Below the pieces are notes generated by a model. That model did no database searches. It was given only the letters and a program-made list of their open reading frames with translations, and was not told the origin of the DNA. From Rivularia sp. T60_A2020_040 (GTDB taxonomy: Bacteria > Cyanobacteriota > Cyanobacteriia > Cyanobacteriales > Nostocaceae), in contig JACYMD010000093.1 in the NCBI GenBank assembly GCA_015272215.1, positions 124,001 through 188,000 on the forward strand: a stretch of 64,000 nt of DNA. Reading direction: 5' to 3'. Within the stretch, counting starts at the first letter, position 1. Every line of letters begins with the position of its first letter. The translations under genes were made by a program, and so were the position numbers. Below, one piece after another: positions 2 to 64,000 of the stretch.

Positions 2-817
2 GAGTTGGTGAGAGGTTTGTTTACCATTCCTCTGAATTTACCTTGGACTAATTTTGGTAAAGCATTACGCAGTCGTAAATTGTTAGTCAAGCAGATTGAA
101 GAAATTGTATTACAGCGTCAACAACAACCCGCTTCTAATAAAGATGTTTTAGGGATGTTATTACAAGCTACAGATGATGATGGTAATAAACTTAGTGTAG
201 AAGAAATTAAAGACCAAATATTAACTTTACTATTTGCCGGACATGAAACTTTAACATCTGCAATTGCTTCCATGTGTCTTTTAATAGCACAGCATCCAGA
301 AGTTTTAGAGAAAGTACGTCACGAACAGCAGCAATTGGGATTTTCACAACCTTTAACTACAGAGAATCTCAAGCAAATGACTTATTTAGACCAAGTTATT
401 AAAGAAGTCTTGCGTTTGATTCCTCCTGTTGGTGGTGGTTTTCGACAGGTAATCGAACCTTGTGAATTTAACGGTTATTTTATTCCTCAAGGTTGGTCTG
501 TATTATATCAAGTGCCTAAAACACATCAAGATAGCAGTGTATATACTGAGCCATCGAAGTTTGACCCAGAACGTTTTGCACCATCTCGTGCTGAAGATAA
601 AGCCAAACCCTTTAGTCATGTAACATTTGGTGGCGGTATGCGCGAATGTATCGGTAAGGAGTTCGCTAAGTTGGAAATGAAGCTTTTTGCTGCGCTTTTA
701 GTTCGGGAATATAAATGGGAACTTTTACCAGAGCAAGATTTAACTATAATACCAGCGCCTACAGCTTATCCCAAGGATAAGTTGAAAGTTAAATTTAAGG
801 GAATAGGTAATTGGTAA
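2..817 (+). CDS. Cytochrome P450, CYP120-like (C-terminal part)
   Basis: C-terminal ~271 residues of a haem-thiolate monooxygenase; the reading frame is open at the window edge, so the N-terminus lies upstream. Seen: I-helix oxygen-binding motif AGHETLTS, the ExxR pair in KEVLRLIPP, and the haem-cysteine loop FGGGMRECIGKEFAKLEMK. That loop is very close to what I recall of CYP120A1, a Synechocystis retinoic-acid hydroxylase, and to the CYP26 group. A retinoid or apocarotenoid substrate is inference, helped by the carotenoid cleavage oxygenase 5 kb away. The last codons and stop (Gly-Asn-Trp-stop) lie inside a heptamer array (unit ggtaatt). A start at the TTG at position 5 would be an artefact of the edge. 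Confidence 0.92.
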   Translation, partial: ELVRGLFTIPLNLPWTNFGKALRSRKLLVKQIEEIVLQRQQQPASNKDVLGMLLQATDDDGNKLSVEEIKDQILTLLFAGHETLTSAIASMCLLIAQHPEVLEKVRHEQQQLGFSQPLTTENLKQMTYLDQVIKEVLRLIPPVGGGFRQVIEPCEFNGYFIPQGWSVLYQVPKTHQDSSVYTEPSKFDPERFAPSRAEDKAKPFSHVTFGGGMRECIGKEFAKLEMKLFAALLVREYKWELLPEQDLTIIPAPTAYPKDKLKVKFKGIGNW

Positions 818-833
818 TGGGTAATTGGTAATT
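806..833. repeat. Heptamer array, unit ggtaatt, over the P450 stop codon
   Basis: Four consecutive 7-bp units (ggtaatt, ggtaatg, ggtaatt, ggtaatt) start inside the last codons of the P450 gene and contain its TAA stop. This resembles the short tandemly repeated repetitive (STRR) sequences known from heterocystous cyanobacteria. Confidence 0.85.
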
Positions 834-935
834 AAATCTGTGTAATAACTAATCTTGTGTTCCGCTCTCTCTTAAAAAAAAAAGGATTTACGCTTGTTTC
901 CCGTAAATTTAAATTAATTCCCCTTCCAAATCAAT

Positions 936-2012
936 TTAATGTACTACTGCTCTGGTTGCTTCAGCATTAATTGGTTTGATCGTGAACAACTTTACCATAT
1001 GTCCCATTATTGAAAGAAATGATCGGACTTTTTGCAATAATTTCACAACTTTAGGGCGATCGCTATTACTGATTTGAGCTATTTGTAAATTGCGATCGGA
1101 ACACTCTTCTAATCTCCGGAAAAATTCTGGATGTTTGGTATTCAAAATCGCTGGAAATGCTCGTGCGGCTGTGTTGTTAGTTTCTTCGATAACTCGTTTG
1201 TTGTAGTCGCGAGCATCTATACCAAGAGACTTGTAAAAGTTGACTCGCTCAAATACCGTTAATGTGTGAGTGACAAATACCGTTAACAAGAAAAAACGTA
1301 CCCATAATCGTGCTTTCCAATTATTGAAAAGTTGCGGTTGGGATCTTAATAGTGCTTTGAAGAAATCCCCGTGTCTGTTTTCATCTTGACACCAACTTTC
1401 AAAGTAGCGGAATAAAGGATAAAACTGATTTTCTGGATGGGCTTCTAGGTGACGAAACATAATAATGTAACGCCAATAACCAATTTTCTCAGATAGGTAA
1501 ACCGTGTAAATAATCCATTCTGGGGGAAAGAATGTATATGTACGGCTTTTGGTTAAATAACCCAAATCTAAAGAAAGATTAAAATCCGCCATCGCTTTAT
1601 TTAAAAATCCCGCATGACGCGCTTCATCCCGTGCCATGCAGTTAAAAGCATCCGCTAACAAGGGATTACGATTTTTGAGTCGTCGTGATAACTCTTTGAA
1701 TAGCAAAAACCCGGAAAACTCAGAAGTACAAGAACGTTCCAAGAAATCAATGAAAGCTTCCCGCTTTTCACCGTCAATACTATCCCAAGTTTGTTCAAAT
1801 TCATCGTCGCGCACGAAATGATGACGATTATAGTCAGCTTTCAACTCGTCTACAATCGCTTTCAACTCCGTCTCATGCGCTGAAATATCCATCTGAGCCA
1901 CAGCGTCAAAGTCTGTGGTGTAAAAGCGGGGAGTTAACAGTGTTTCCTGTACGGGAGCTTTTACACCTTCTTTGAGCAACTCTGGCTGTGGGGTTGGAAT
2001 AGATTTAACCAT
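936..2012 (-). CDS. acsF: Mg-protoporphyrin IX monomethyl ester oxidative cyclase (AcsF/ChlA)
   Basis: Forms the isocyclic ring of chlorophyll: converts Mg-protoporphyrin IX monomethyl ester to divinyl protochlorophyllide using O2 and a di-iron centre. The 358-residue length is normal. Di-iron ligands are visible as DEARH (about residues 129-133) and DENRH (about 210-214). The start ATG is followed by the usual variable Pro-rich N-terminus. Cyanobacteria often carry two cyclases; one is induced at low oxygen and sits with a heme oxygenase and hemN (chlAII-ho2-hemN in Synechocystis). Here heme oxygenase and hemN lie 1.5 kb away on the opposite strand, so this could be the low-oxygen copy. I cannot assign the isoform from sequence alone. 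Confidence 0.95.
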   Translation of the reverse strand: MVKSIPTPQPELLKEGVKAPVQETLLTPRFYTTDFDAVAQMDISAHETELKAIVDELKADYNRHHFVRDDEFEQTWDSIDGEKREAFIDFLERSCTSEFSGFLLFKELSRRLKNRNPLLADAFNCMARDEARHAGFLNKAMADFNLSLDLGYLTKSRTYTFFPPEWIIYTVYLSEKIGYWRYIIMFRHLEAHPENQFYPLFRYFESWCQDENRHGDFFKALLRSQPQLFNNWKARLWVRFFLLTVFVTHTLTVFERVNFYKSLGIDARDYNKRVIEETNNTAARAFPAILNTKHPEFFRRLEECSDRNLQIAQISNSDRPKVVKLLQKVRSFLSIMGHMVKLFTIKPINAEATRAVVH

Positions 2013-2466
2013 GAGAATTATTCAACTTAATTATTCAATTTATCCACTTTCGGCTATATAACCATTAATAGTTGCTATTTTTGATCTTTTGCACAAATAT
2101 TTAAATTGATTTACAAAAACCAATTGGAAACTAGTACTCCTTTTCATTGATTCTGACGGGTTGTAGAGACGTTATATATAACGTCTCTACATTACGTCGG
2201 TAGACAAACAAAACCAATCAAAATTAATGAAAAAGACCACTAGTAGTGCTTTTCATTAGTTCTGCGGGGTTTCTATCAAGCCTATTTTGTGTATTTTTAC
2301 ATAAAAATGTCGCCAAGTGTATGTCTTTTTTTTACACATACCAAGAGGAATGTAACTCTTAAGACAGATGTGCTGTAAACAAAAATGGCAGTATATTGAA
2401 AAATACATTCAAAAAGGTTAACTTAAAGTTAAGCAAAAATTAATAAAATATTATCCAAGAAAAACT
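2013..2466. other. Intergenic region between divergent acsF and a small gene
   Basis: AT-rich 454 bp that must hold the promoters of acsF (minus) and the small gene at 2467 (plus). It contains the perfect palindrome at 2163-2190 and two similar stretches around 2139-2161 and 2246-2272 (both with 'cttttcatt.attctg.cggg'), so part is repeat-derived. No tRNA or coding potential seen. Confidence 0.6.
2163..2190. repeat. 28-bp perfect palindrome of the gtagagacg family
   Basis: Arms gtagagacgttata / tataacgtctctac pair over the full 28 bases. The core gtagagacg recurs in palindromic contexts near 7340, 10478, 23711 and 34132, so it belongs to a dispersed repeat family and is unlikely to be a specific operator of acsF. 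Confidence 0.85.
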
Positions 2467-62338: not shown

Positions 62339-62439
62339 AATCGTGTCGTTCGGTGCTAATCTTGAAGATGACATGAGTTAATCTTAAAGTCTCTACGTCT
62401 GTAAAGAGTAAAAATATAGCTTCGTAATTTAGGCTCAGC

Positions 62440-63888
62440 ATGGTCACCACCGCAGAAAAAACAAAAACTGGTTACATTACTCAAGTTATCGGTCCAGTTG
62501 TAGACGTAAAATTTCCTAACGGAAAAATGCCCGCAATCTACAACGCTTTGAACATTAAAGGCACTAATGAAGCAGGACAAGAAATATCTCTTACCTGTGA
62601 AGTACAGCAGTTGCTAGGCGACAATCAGGTGCGGGCTGTTTCCATGACTTCTACCGATGGTTTGGTACGGGGAATGGAAGCAACAGATACTGGCGCTCCT
62701 ATCAGTGTACCTGTAGGAAAAGCTACATTAGGTAGAATTTTTAACGTCCTCGGTGAAACTGTAGATAACAGAGGTCCCGTTGGTACTGATGAACGTTCTC
62801 CGATTCACCGTGATGCTCCCAAACTGACCGAACTGGAAACCAAACCTTCCGTGTTTGAAACCGGAATCAAGGTTGTTGACTTGCTAACTCCCTACCGACG
62901 TGGTGGCAAAATCGGTCTGTTCGGCGGTGCAGGTGTTGGTAAAACCGTTATTATGATGGAGTTGATCAACAACATCGCGACCGAACACGGTGGTGTGTCG
63001 GTATTTGGTGGAGTAGGGGAACGTACCCGCGAAGGCAATGACCTCTACAACGAAATGATTGAATCCAAAGTTATCAACCCCGATAACTTGAATGAATCAA
63101 AAATTGCCCTCGTGTACGGTCAGATGAACGAACCACCCGGAGCTAGAATGCGGGTTGGTTTGTCTGCGCTGACAATGGCAGAATATTTCCGCGATGTTAA
63201 CAAGCAGGACGTACTGCTATTTATTGACAACATCTTCCGTTTTGTACAAGCAGGTTCCGAAGTATCGGCACTATTAGGAAGAATGCCTTCTGCTGTGGGA
63301 TATCAGCCAACATTGGGTACTGATGTAGGTGCGCTACAAGAACGAATCACCTCCACCAACGAAGGTTCCATTACTTCCATTCAAGCCGTATACGTACCTG
63401 CGGATGACTTAACCGATCCTGCACCGGCAACTACCTTTGCTCACTTGGATGGAACCACAGTATTGTCTCGTGGTTTGGCTGCAAAAGGTATTTATCCTGC
63501 TGTAGATCCATTAGGTTCTACTTCTACAATGTTACAACCCAACATCGTTGGTGAAGAACATTATCAAACAGCTCGTGCGGTACAATCGACACTGCAACGT
63601 TACAAAGAACTTCAAGACATCATCGCCATTCTTGGGTTGGATGAATTATCCGAAGATGACCGTCTCACAGTTGCTCGCGCTCGTAAAGTAGAGCGTTTCT
63701 TATCTCAGCCATTCTTCGTTGCAGAAGTATTCACCGGCGCACCTGGCAAATACGTCAAACTTGAAGACACCATCAAAGGCTTCAATATGATTCTTTCTGG
63801 TGAACTCGATGAATTACCAGAACAAGCTTTCTACATGGTTGGTAGCATCGACGAAGCCAGAGCAAAAGCAGAAAAAATGAAAGGCTAA
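62440..63888 (+). CDS. atpB: ATP synthase F1 beta subunit
   Basis: 482 residues, catalytic subunit of the thylakoid/plasma-membrane F1Fo ATP synthase. Walker [24 protein letters not shown] (catalytic Glu), [17 protein letters not shown] (Walker B). Called atpB in cyanobacteria (atpD elsewhere); atpE (epsilon) usually follows and would lie beyond the window. Start ATG 62440 ([20 protein letters not shown]). Confidence 0.98.
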
Positions 63889-63892
63889 ATAA

Positions 63893-64000
63893 TAGTTAGT
63901 GGTTAGTGGTTAGTGGTTAGTGGTTGGTGGATAGTGGTTAGTAGTTAGTGGTTAGTAATCAAATATCAACCAACAGCCCTCAACCATCAACTATCAACTA
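63893..64000. repeat. gttagtg heptamer array after atpB
   Basis: About eight agtggtt/gttagtg units, then caactat units; continues to the window end. Separates atpB from the expected atpE. Confidence 0.85.

Follow-up and report, generated by a model that had tools for sequence, protein, structure and literature searches.

Heptamer tandem arrays of Rivularia and related cyanobacteria read outward from gene edges on their C-poor strand

Introduction

Tandem arrays of seven-nucleotide units occur at many gene ends in the stretch of DNA studied here, 64,000 nucleotides of the Rivularia sp. T60_A2020_040 genome (contig C53, positions 124001-188000; hereafter the window), and intergenic heptamer repeats have been described in several bacteria before. 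Rehm et al. (2015) reported GGGAATC and GGGGA(C/T)T repeats in Xanthomonas and Nostoc PCC 7120, which, in the accessible part of that paper, lie almost exclusively nearer the open reading frame (ORF) 5' of the G-rich repeat, irrespective of ORF orientation, occur near or over stop codons and are under-represented between divergent ORFs (PMC4692102). The same text also mentions the heptanucleotides of Calothrix (PMC4692102). MacGregor (2015), as far as the available text goes, described TAACTGA direct repeats in Beggiatoaceae and cyanobacteria that lie over 13 stops of upstream genes, explained this position by stops in all three frames, and found that the largest category ends 1 nt before start codons and that strains differ by 7-nt insertions or deletions (PMC4679880). 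Both papers, in their accessible portions, cite Mrazek et al. (2007) for the dominance of heptamers among the long simple sequence repeats (SSRs) of prokaryotic species rich in long units, and for the idea that 7 nt is the stretch contacting the polymerase (PMC4679880, PMC4692102). In Bacillus, tandem repeats of fixed unit length have many unrelated unit sequences per genome, according to the part available of Subirana and Messeguer (2021) (PMC8161180). Within the accessible text of this literature, no accepted origin or role is given for heptamer repeats.

Mazel and colleagues reportedly described short tandemly repeated repetitive (STRR) sequences as dispersed heptanucleotide tandem repeats of heterocystous and filamentous cyanobacteria. 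By this description, the heptamer arrays analysed here are probably STRR sequences: they consist of 7-nt tandem units, are dispersed, slippage-prone, mainly intergenic and present in many copies, and have one strand nearly free of C. A rule of position and strand that holds across all units is not known to belong to that description. In this study we show such a rule: at stops and at starts, the G-rich, nearly C-free strand of an array runs away from the neighbouring gene, however that gene is oriented. This is the strand-position rule of the Rehm repeats, and it holds here in four genomes. However, Rehm et al., in the text at hand, deal with one G-quadruplex-forming unit type per genome, whereas here dozens of unit classes, the commonest of which lack GGG, conform to it, and related genomes can have different units at a shared edge. 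As with the MacGregor repeats, the overlap with a stop is limited by the in-frame stops of the array; in contrast to the single unit of that study, for which the accessible text describes orientation with respect to the downstream start, units that lack stops show the same behaviour here. The Bacillus units differ in being 20-21 or 52 nt long, with no gene-edge rule in the part of that paper available, and neither a gene-edge nor a strand rule is among the features of the Mrazek SSRs as cited in the accessible portions of the two 2015 papers.

Methods

The genome that contains the window (G000) comprises 6.02 Mb in 139 contigs, of which 1,142,965 bases (19%) were sampled, window included. The sample is non-random, since it consists of contigs from a P450 search and, from each of 20 further contigs, at most the first 20 kb. 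A first sample of the same genome covered 863 kb (177,755 intergenic and 685,672 coding bases). Samples of relatives were 387,062 bases of G001, a same-genus relative corresponding to Plectonema cf. radiosum LEGE 06105; 500,000 bases of G005, likewise a same-genus relative, corresponding to Calothrix parasitica NIES-267; and 400,000 bases of G027, an order-level relative. Genes were called with a purpose-built hexamer-model caller, for which stops are exact and starts approximate. The array detector scores the match of each base i with base i+7 and needs about three units. Polarity was set by the G-rich strand, the 5' end of which is called the head of an array and the other end the tail. In G000, 302 arrays lay outside genes or across gene ends and 292 of them had polarity; the 10 arrays without a G/C difference and 14 arrays inside genes were excluded from polarity counts. 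The placement null put each array at a random position in its own intergenic region in 1000 trials, and because it permits an overlap of 21 bp with the gene on either side, it overstates the expectation at starts. Orthologous edges were compared between G000 and G001 in 139 intergenic regions with 136 stop and 142 start edges.

Results

Array polarity relative to genes

Within 20 bp of a coding sequence, heads outnumbered tails 187 to 38 in G000 (292 polar arrays), 89 to 14 in G005 (139 arrays), 65 to 13 in G001 (103 arrays) and 17 to 2 in G027 (31 arrays). Small samples gave 6 to 3 in a further genome, G003 (17 arrays), and 9 to 2 over six loci from other cyanobacteria, to which the G000 gene model was applied (14 arrays in four of the loci, none in two). 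The bias is present in tandem, convergent and divergent regions of G000 (122 heads to 22 tails, 51 to 15 and 14 to 1, respectively), and it survives restriction to high-scoring ATG genes of at least 150 aa (136 heads, 24 tails). It extends to arrays that share an intergenic region: among 73 adjacent pairs, a G-rich array is followed by a C-rich one in 48 and the reverse order occurs in 3. Tail-to-tail neighbours outnumber the reverse 46 to 1 in G000 and 28 to 0 in G005, and switches from G-rich to C-rich within an array outnumber the reverse 20 to 0 and 4 to 0 in the same two genomes. Regions with a single array showed no polarity over their second fifth (10:10) or third fifth (9:13).

Several simple sources of the rule were considered and rejected. 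Baseline composition does not account for it, since array-free stops of G000 show only a slight outward G skew (0.49-0.56), and array-free starts show the opposite skew, with an excess of sense G 5-15 bp upstream in G000 and G005. Neither hairpin or inverted-repeat pairing nor transposon ends serve as a general account, because facing arrays share a class no more often than after re-pairing (1 of 43 in G000 vs 3.0 expected; 3 of 33 in G005 vs 1.3 expected, P 0.13). In general, the arrays do not form the terminal inverted repeats around a core that are the mark of miniature inverted-repeat transposable elements. For arrays in the interior of intergenic regions, flank conservation did not differ clearly between heads (0.49 of 39) and tails (0.37 of 79); a hairpin with a T-run precedes 4 of 35 interior stop-side heads vs 1 of 142 tails (Fisher P 0.006).

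The arrays themselves stand far above background. In the 1.14 Mb of G000 we found 332 arrays of period 7 and at most 37 for each other period from 5 to 15 except 14, which bears out the original prediction, made from the window alone, that unit sequences vary while the period stays 7. In the 863-kb sample, 238 intergenic period-7 arrays were detected in 177,755 bases, of which they fill 11,369, vs a mean of 0.0 in three Markov resamplings; the 685,672 coding bases held just 14, so that the arrays are mainly intergenic. Rehm-type repeats have a preference for four units; here, spans of 4 and of 5 units are the most frequent (65 and 60 of 302 arrays), with a detector that itself needs about three units. 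C makes up 5.6% of the G-rich array strand in G000, 4.4% in G005 and 13.1% in G027.

Accumulation at stop and start codons

Array heads pile up at both kinds of gene edge. In G000, 108 of 292 heads lie within -21..+7 of a stop, vs 37.9 expected under the placement null (maximum 53 in 1000 trials), and 42 lie in the same range of a start, vs 21.5 expected (maximum 38), while tails are scarce at stops (18 vs 34.3) and at starts (9 vs 23.8). G005 has 60 heads at stops (16.6 expected) and 20 at starts (10.8 expected), with 7 and 4 tails. Of the 31 arrays of G027, 7 have heads at stops vs 2.0 expected; start enrichment is not shown in this small set (5 vs 4.1). Arrays are thus concentrated at stops, as had been claimed, and the uniform spread across intergenic regions that would have told against the claim is not seen. 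The other pattern named as counting against it, arrays as frequent at starts as at stops, was found in part: starts are enriched too, although start-edge heads in G000 reach only 0.39-0.46 of the stop-edge count, and units with no stop on the G-rich strand have 14 start-edge vs 17 stop-edge heads.

In G000 a head is present at 128 of 929 stop edges and at 59 of 933 start edges. Their density near stops is 6.4 per kb at 0..+7 and falls to 0.1-0.4 per kb at 21-200 bp. Stop-edge heads reach into genes (61 of 292 at -21..-1), and none of the start-edge heads lies at -21..-8. At 69 of 76 overlapped stops, the array covers no more than 21 nt counted through the last base of the stop, a length that fits an array closing the reading frame by itself. 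Other dispersed intergenic repeats, taken as a control (265 intervals), are depleted at stop edges (14 vs 35.0 expected) and at start edges (5 vs 14.0), and 73 arrays of period 8-13 show a mild enrichment at stops (13 vs 7.3) and none at starts (4 vs 7.2). No array was found within 20 bp of a tRNA edge and two within 120 bp, among only 15 tRNAs, which are too few to decide.

Unit classes and stop codons

The unit vocabulary is limited: 266 arrays fall into 56 classes, and ten classes hold 178 of them. None of the six commonest (ACAGTTG, AATTGGT, AGATTTT, AGGAGTT, ATTTTGG and AAAGGTT) contains GGG. The AATAGGG class makes up 10 of 292 arrays, so that G-quadruplex-forming units of the Rehm type do not characterise the set, and the AACTGAT class, equivalent to the TAACTGA unit, makes up 8 of 266.

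The original prediction had taken the stop codon as the anchor of the arrays. This did not hold, for start edges are enriched as well, units without stops obey the rule, and the variable that matters is the strand. Classes without a stop on either strand show head-to-tail ratios of 14:2, 6:1 and 6:2 at the stop edges of three genomes (26:5 in all, P 0.0002). The stop content of a unit may nevertheless affect which edge a class prefers. ACAGTTG and AATTGGT heads favour stops over starts 32:3 and 24:1; the preference is 5:14 for AGATTTT, which has stops, and 5:9 for ATTTTGG, which has none. Over all G000 heads, stop-bearing classes divide 111:45 between stops and starts and no-stop classes 17:14, a difference that is suggestive only and not significant (Fisher P 0.09). 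Arrays of stop-bearing units extend over the last codons of genes and provide the stop itself: TGA is used at 21 of 25 stops overlapped by ACAGTTG-class arrays vs 190 of 958 stops without overlap. On our reading, the stop codon would be a by-product of array position and orientation and not the seed.

A fixed phase of head and tail was rejected as a property of all classes, since low spread is found mainly in ATTTTRG, AAGAGGC and some small classes; the stop-preferring ACAGTTG and AATTGGT have broad head and tail phases. Start codons and Shine-Dalgarno-like motifs were likewise rejected as the sole cause of start-edge polarity: the AGATTTT consensus has neither, yet its arrays stand 14:0 head to tail at starts.

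In the ATTTTRG class, head and tail each have a preferred phase, and the arrays form a near-fixed element of about 31 bp. Such elements, often 31 bp long, lie a few nucleotides from start codons, in the window (39615-39646) and at many start edges of the samples, where they form near-G-free leaders; array-free genes have a Shine-Dalgarno-like G excess at this place. An element of about 100 bp, TACC...GGTA, carries ATTTTRG units near one end on C53 outside the window (chunk C53b, near 50749 and 182765). The copy near 182765 is missing from the G001 orthologue, and the element is a candidate vehicle for the class. The 16-mer AGAAGTCGGGTTTTTA looks like a dispersed element of its own: counted with its complement, it has 47 copies in the sampled intergenic DNA that lies outside arrays.

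Orthologous edges in relatives

At the orthologous stop edges of G000 and G001, a head array is present in both genomes in 24 cases and in one only in 14; the corresponding numbers for start edges are 9 and 7. Shared edges differ in their unit by at least 2 bases at 6 of 24 stops and 2 of 9 starts, which shows that one edge can hold different units in different relatives. In a few instances the class found at a given stop is not the same in G000 and G001, such as ATTTTAG vs GTTAGGA or AGTTGAC vs GGTAATG, and the stop of the SRPBCC-type gene has GTTAAGA units in G000 and G001, GAGTAAT in G003 and GGTAATT in G005. In window orthologues with differing stop units, the C-terminus stays within a few residues of one position, except for the heme oxygenase, which is 10-15 residues shorter than in G005 and G003. 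Judged by eye, the other genome retains a relic or has an interrupted or related array in about 15 of 21 cases of presence and absence. The difference in intergenic length rises with the difference in array length (Theil-Sen slope 0.78, 0.36-1.21, 38 regions). Length changes are thus roughly additive, which does not support the notion that arrays overwrite flanking DNA.

Arrays of the window

Tandem Repeats Finder reports period-7 arrays at the places where they had originally been noticed. At a score of at least 14 we found 27 arrays in the window, with 11 stop contacts (-21..+7 bp), 6 of them overlapping the stop, and 5 start-codon contacts within -7..+8; a score of at least 10 gives 35 arrays, with 14 contacts at stops, 8 of them overlapping, and 5 at starts. 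That many genes end at period-7 arrays is therefore upheld, the YqgF/RuvX gene (23737-24138) being a weak case, with about two units (GTTAGGAGTTAG) past its stop, under the detector threshold. Pfam backs the assignments of the P450, heme oxygenase, BT1, SNF2, DUF1400, triosephosphate isomerase and polyketide-cyclase/SRPBCC-type genes, and also those of the ABC exporter, Ycf4, the HemN-type radical SAM protein, the RPE65-type carotenoid oxygenase and the ATP synthase alpha/beta family protein.

An AATTGGT-class array at 798..833 (+) lies over the stop (817) of the cytochrome P450 gene and is without counterpart in G001, and an AAAGGTT-class array at 4207..4236 (+) lies over the stop (4215) of the heme oxygenase gene, both with the head at the gene. 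The HemN-type gene (4332-5714) is bordered on both sides: a GTTGATAG-like array at 4246..4323 (-), C-rich on the plus strand, has its head 8 bp from the start, and at 5719..5773 two arrays stand tail to tail, CAGTTGA (+) from the HemN-type stop (5714) and AATTGGT (-) from the RPE65-type stop (5774). The latter stretch contacts two convergent stops, and its G001 counterpart has ATTCCCT units at the right end. A short AATTGGT array at 7372..7388 (-) lies over the stop of the BT1 transporter gene (7386-8819) and is longer in G001. Further arrays over stops are an AGTTGAC-class array at 16748..16853 (-) for the SNF2 gene (16851-20090); a TAATCGG array (+) for the DUF1400 hydrolase gene (stop at 35900), continued by CTGTCAA units, the whole at 35891..35960; a GGAGTTA-class array at 38549..38606 (-) for triosephosphate isomerase (38596-39324); a GTTAAGA/GTTTTGA array at 43912..44019 (+) for the SRPBCC-type gene (stop at 43923); and an ACTGATA array (the TAACTGA unit, score below 14) at 44093..44114 for gene 44111-44935. 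GGAGTTA-type units at 54567..54594 (-) run through the stop of the ABC exporter gene (54573-56444), and a GTTAGTG array at 63895..63956 (+) lies 6 bp past the stop (63888) of the ATP synthase alpha/beta family gene.

At starts, an ATTTTRG element at 10417..10448 (+) adjoins the called TTG start of gene 9236-10417, a start codon that is uncertain; an ATTTTAG array at 16687..16735 (+), for which no match was found in G001, has its head 7 bp from the start of gene 15846-16679; the ATTTTRG element at 39615..39646 (-) lies 4 bp upstream of the start of gene 39651-41117; and an AAAGGTC array at 54517..54561 (+) lies at the called start of gene 53383-54516, for which a longer ORF would begin inside the array. 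Three arrays are exceptions to the strand rule: an ATTTTRG array at 15284..15322 (+), tail-first 7 bp from the stop of gene 15330-15629; a TAATTAT-like array at 15806..15845 (+), tail-first against the stop of gene 15846-16679; and a weak array at 23607..23639 (-), 3 bp past the stop of gene 23277-23603, whose sense strand is C-rich.

In the intergenic stretch 14936-15329, the 3' end of gene 15330-15629 is present a second time in partial form, together with an ATTTTGG array, and this extra copy is missing in the G001 orthologue. At 10418-10635 and 23604-23736, and in their G001 counterparts, GTAGAGACGTAGCA...CGTCTCTAC palindromes and another short palindrome adjoin or interrupt heptamer arrays, as if the arrays were insertion sites for the neighbouring palindromes. 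A GGGGAGAT-type array of 8-bp period lies at 38477-38546, close to where gene 37620-38450 starts; arrays that are not heptameric are far less common.

Discussion

Most of the elements of what is reported here are already in the literature: as far as the accessible text of the two papers goes, the strand rule and the overlap with stops were published by Rehm et al. (2015), and the stops in all frames by MacGregor (2015) (PMC4692102, PMC4679880). The stop anchoring that had been taken as undescribed was therefore known, in closeness to and overlap with stops, for single heptamers. What appears new, as far as our searches show, is the independence from unit sequence, the no-stop control and the turnover of units at fixed edges. 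In the open-licence literature we recognised no paper with a rule for all heptamers, a no-stop test or unit replacement at fixed edges, which is not proof of absence.

How the rule arises is a matter of weighing. The account that we tentatively favour, and rate a little below an even chance, is that translation signals at gene edges act as a filter on dispersed, slippage-prone arrays, and that arrays which pass it persist at the edge. Arrays would be largely barred from coding sequence and would gather at its edges in the orientation that each edge tolerates, the proposed cause being a sieve of translation signals together with retention. We favour the sieve because the C-free strand can carry all three stop codons and its complement is nearly free of start codons. 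An array reading outward could thus overlap a gene 3' end harmlessly and then be hard to lose, and its near-G-free complement, unlikely to hold ATG, GTG, TTG or a Shine-Dalgarno-like motif, would be harmless just before a start. Several observations weigh against this account. Heads are enriched at edges (6.4 vs 0.1-0.4 per kb), and tails are not simply removed, so a pure filter is insufficient, since no peak would result from it. At the edges where heptamer heads peak, other dispersed intergenic repeats are depleted. Units without stops follow the rule at stop edges (26 to 5), 26 of the 31 arrays of G027 have no stop on either strand, and AGATTTT arrays, whose consensus has no start codon and no GGA or AGG on the G strand, nevertheless have their heads, not their tails, at starts (14 to 0). 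There is also much noise in the additive length result, with a median non-array difference of 50.5 bp in regions where arrays differ vs 9 bp where array length is equal. The earlier suggestion that insertion is tolerated only outside the frame explains the absence of arrays from genes but not the peak at their edges, where other repeats are depleted. The sieve is thus not the full explanation, and a directional process may act as well.

Such a process could be sufficient by itself, if, at the DNA level and independently of translation, C-free heptamers were laid down or extended in the 5'-to-3' direction away from the place where protected sequence (coding sequence, terminator or promoter) ends; position and polarity would then come from the process, and selection would only mark the border. 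This is in our view the main competitor, although an unlikely one. It would accommodate a rule that ignores gene orientation and is obeyed by no-stop units, the several-fold head peak at both edge types, the interior heads behind terminator-like hairpins, and the tail-to-tail neighbours and one-way switches of G000 and G005. It also fits the 19 of 30 differing orthologous pairs in which the head-matched length exceeds the tail-matched one (the reverse in 6), a measure that is head-biased because it is aligned from the gene. However, clean fresh insertions are rare between G000 and G001, the few tRNA edges lack close arrays, and interior head flanks are not clearly better conserved than tail flanks. 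We know of no enzyme or intermediate for it, which also counts against it. A more specific version, in which a polymerase lacking a fixed template extends 3' ends at protected borders with C-free heptamers, telomere-like, and the ends are joined tail to tail, is very improbable in our view; if true, the intergenic regions of these genomes would be the scars left where ends had been extended and joined again, and the strand rule, independent of gene orientation, would be the signature of that chemistry. A function of the arrays, kept at gene ends for closing frames after the stop, for shaping mRNA ends or as an unstructured leader before the start, would agree with the 24 of 38 occupied orthologous stop edges that have an array in both genomes while the unit changes, and with the replacement of the sense G excess of array-free starts by its opposite where arrays sit (G000, G005). 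Most genes have no edge array, however, and facing arrays are not complementary in class, which makes this account quite unlikely. Insertion of small mobile elements carrying heptamer arrays near gene ends is doubtful in a high degree: the fixed phases and common 31-bp length of ATTTTRG, and its copies in the TACC...GGTA element missing from the G001 orthologue, speak for it in that class, but the stop-preferring classes have broad phases and other dispersed repeats avoid the edges. The original prediction had proposed slippage that is seeded at stop codons, in 3' ends under weak selection, and duplicates local sequence; this has become hard to credit. Unit class does track the stop codon used, and the stop position is nearly ancestral in several window genes. 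Against this stand the arrays at starts, the no-stop units, the limited vocabulary common to many sites, the near-fixed ATTTTRG element and the different classes at the same stop in close relatives.

In summary, what was in 2015 a puzzle of two unit types becomes a general rule, free of unit sequence and of stop codons, that the C-poor strand points away from the gene. For the genes concerned, the last residues of some proteins are encoded by arrays and are not to be read as conserved C-termini, and predicted starts that adjoin arrays need care. For the arrays of these cyanobacteria, the general strand rule removes the stop codon as their cause and separates models that can be tested with very close strains.

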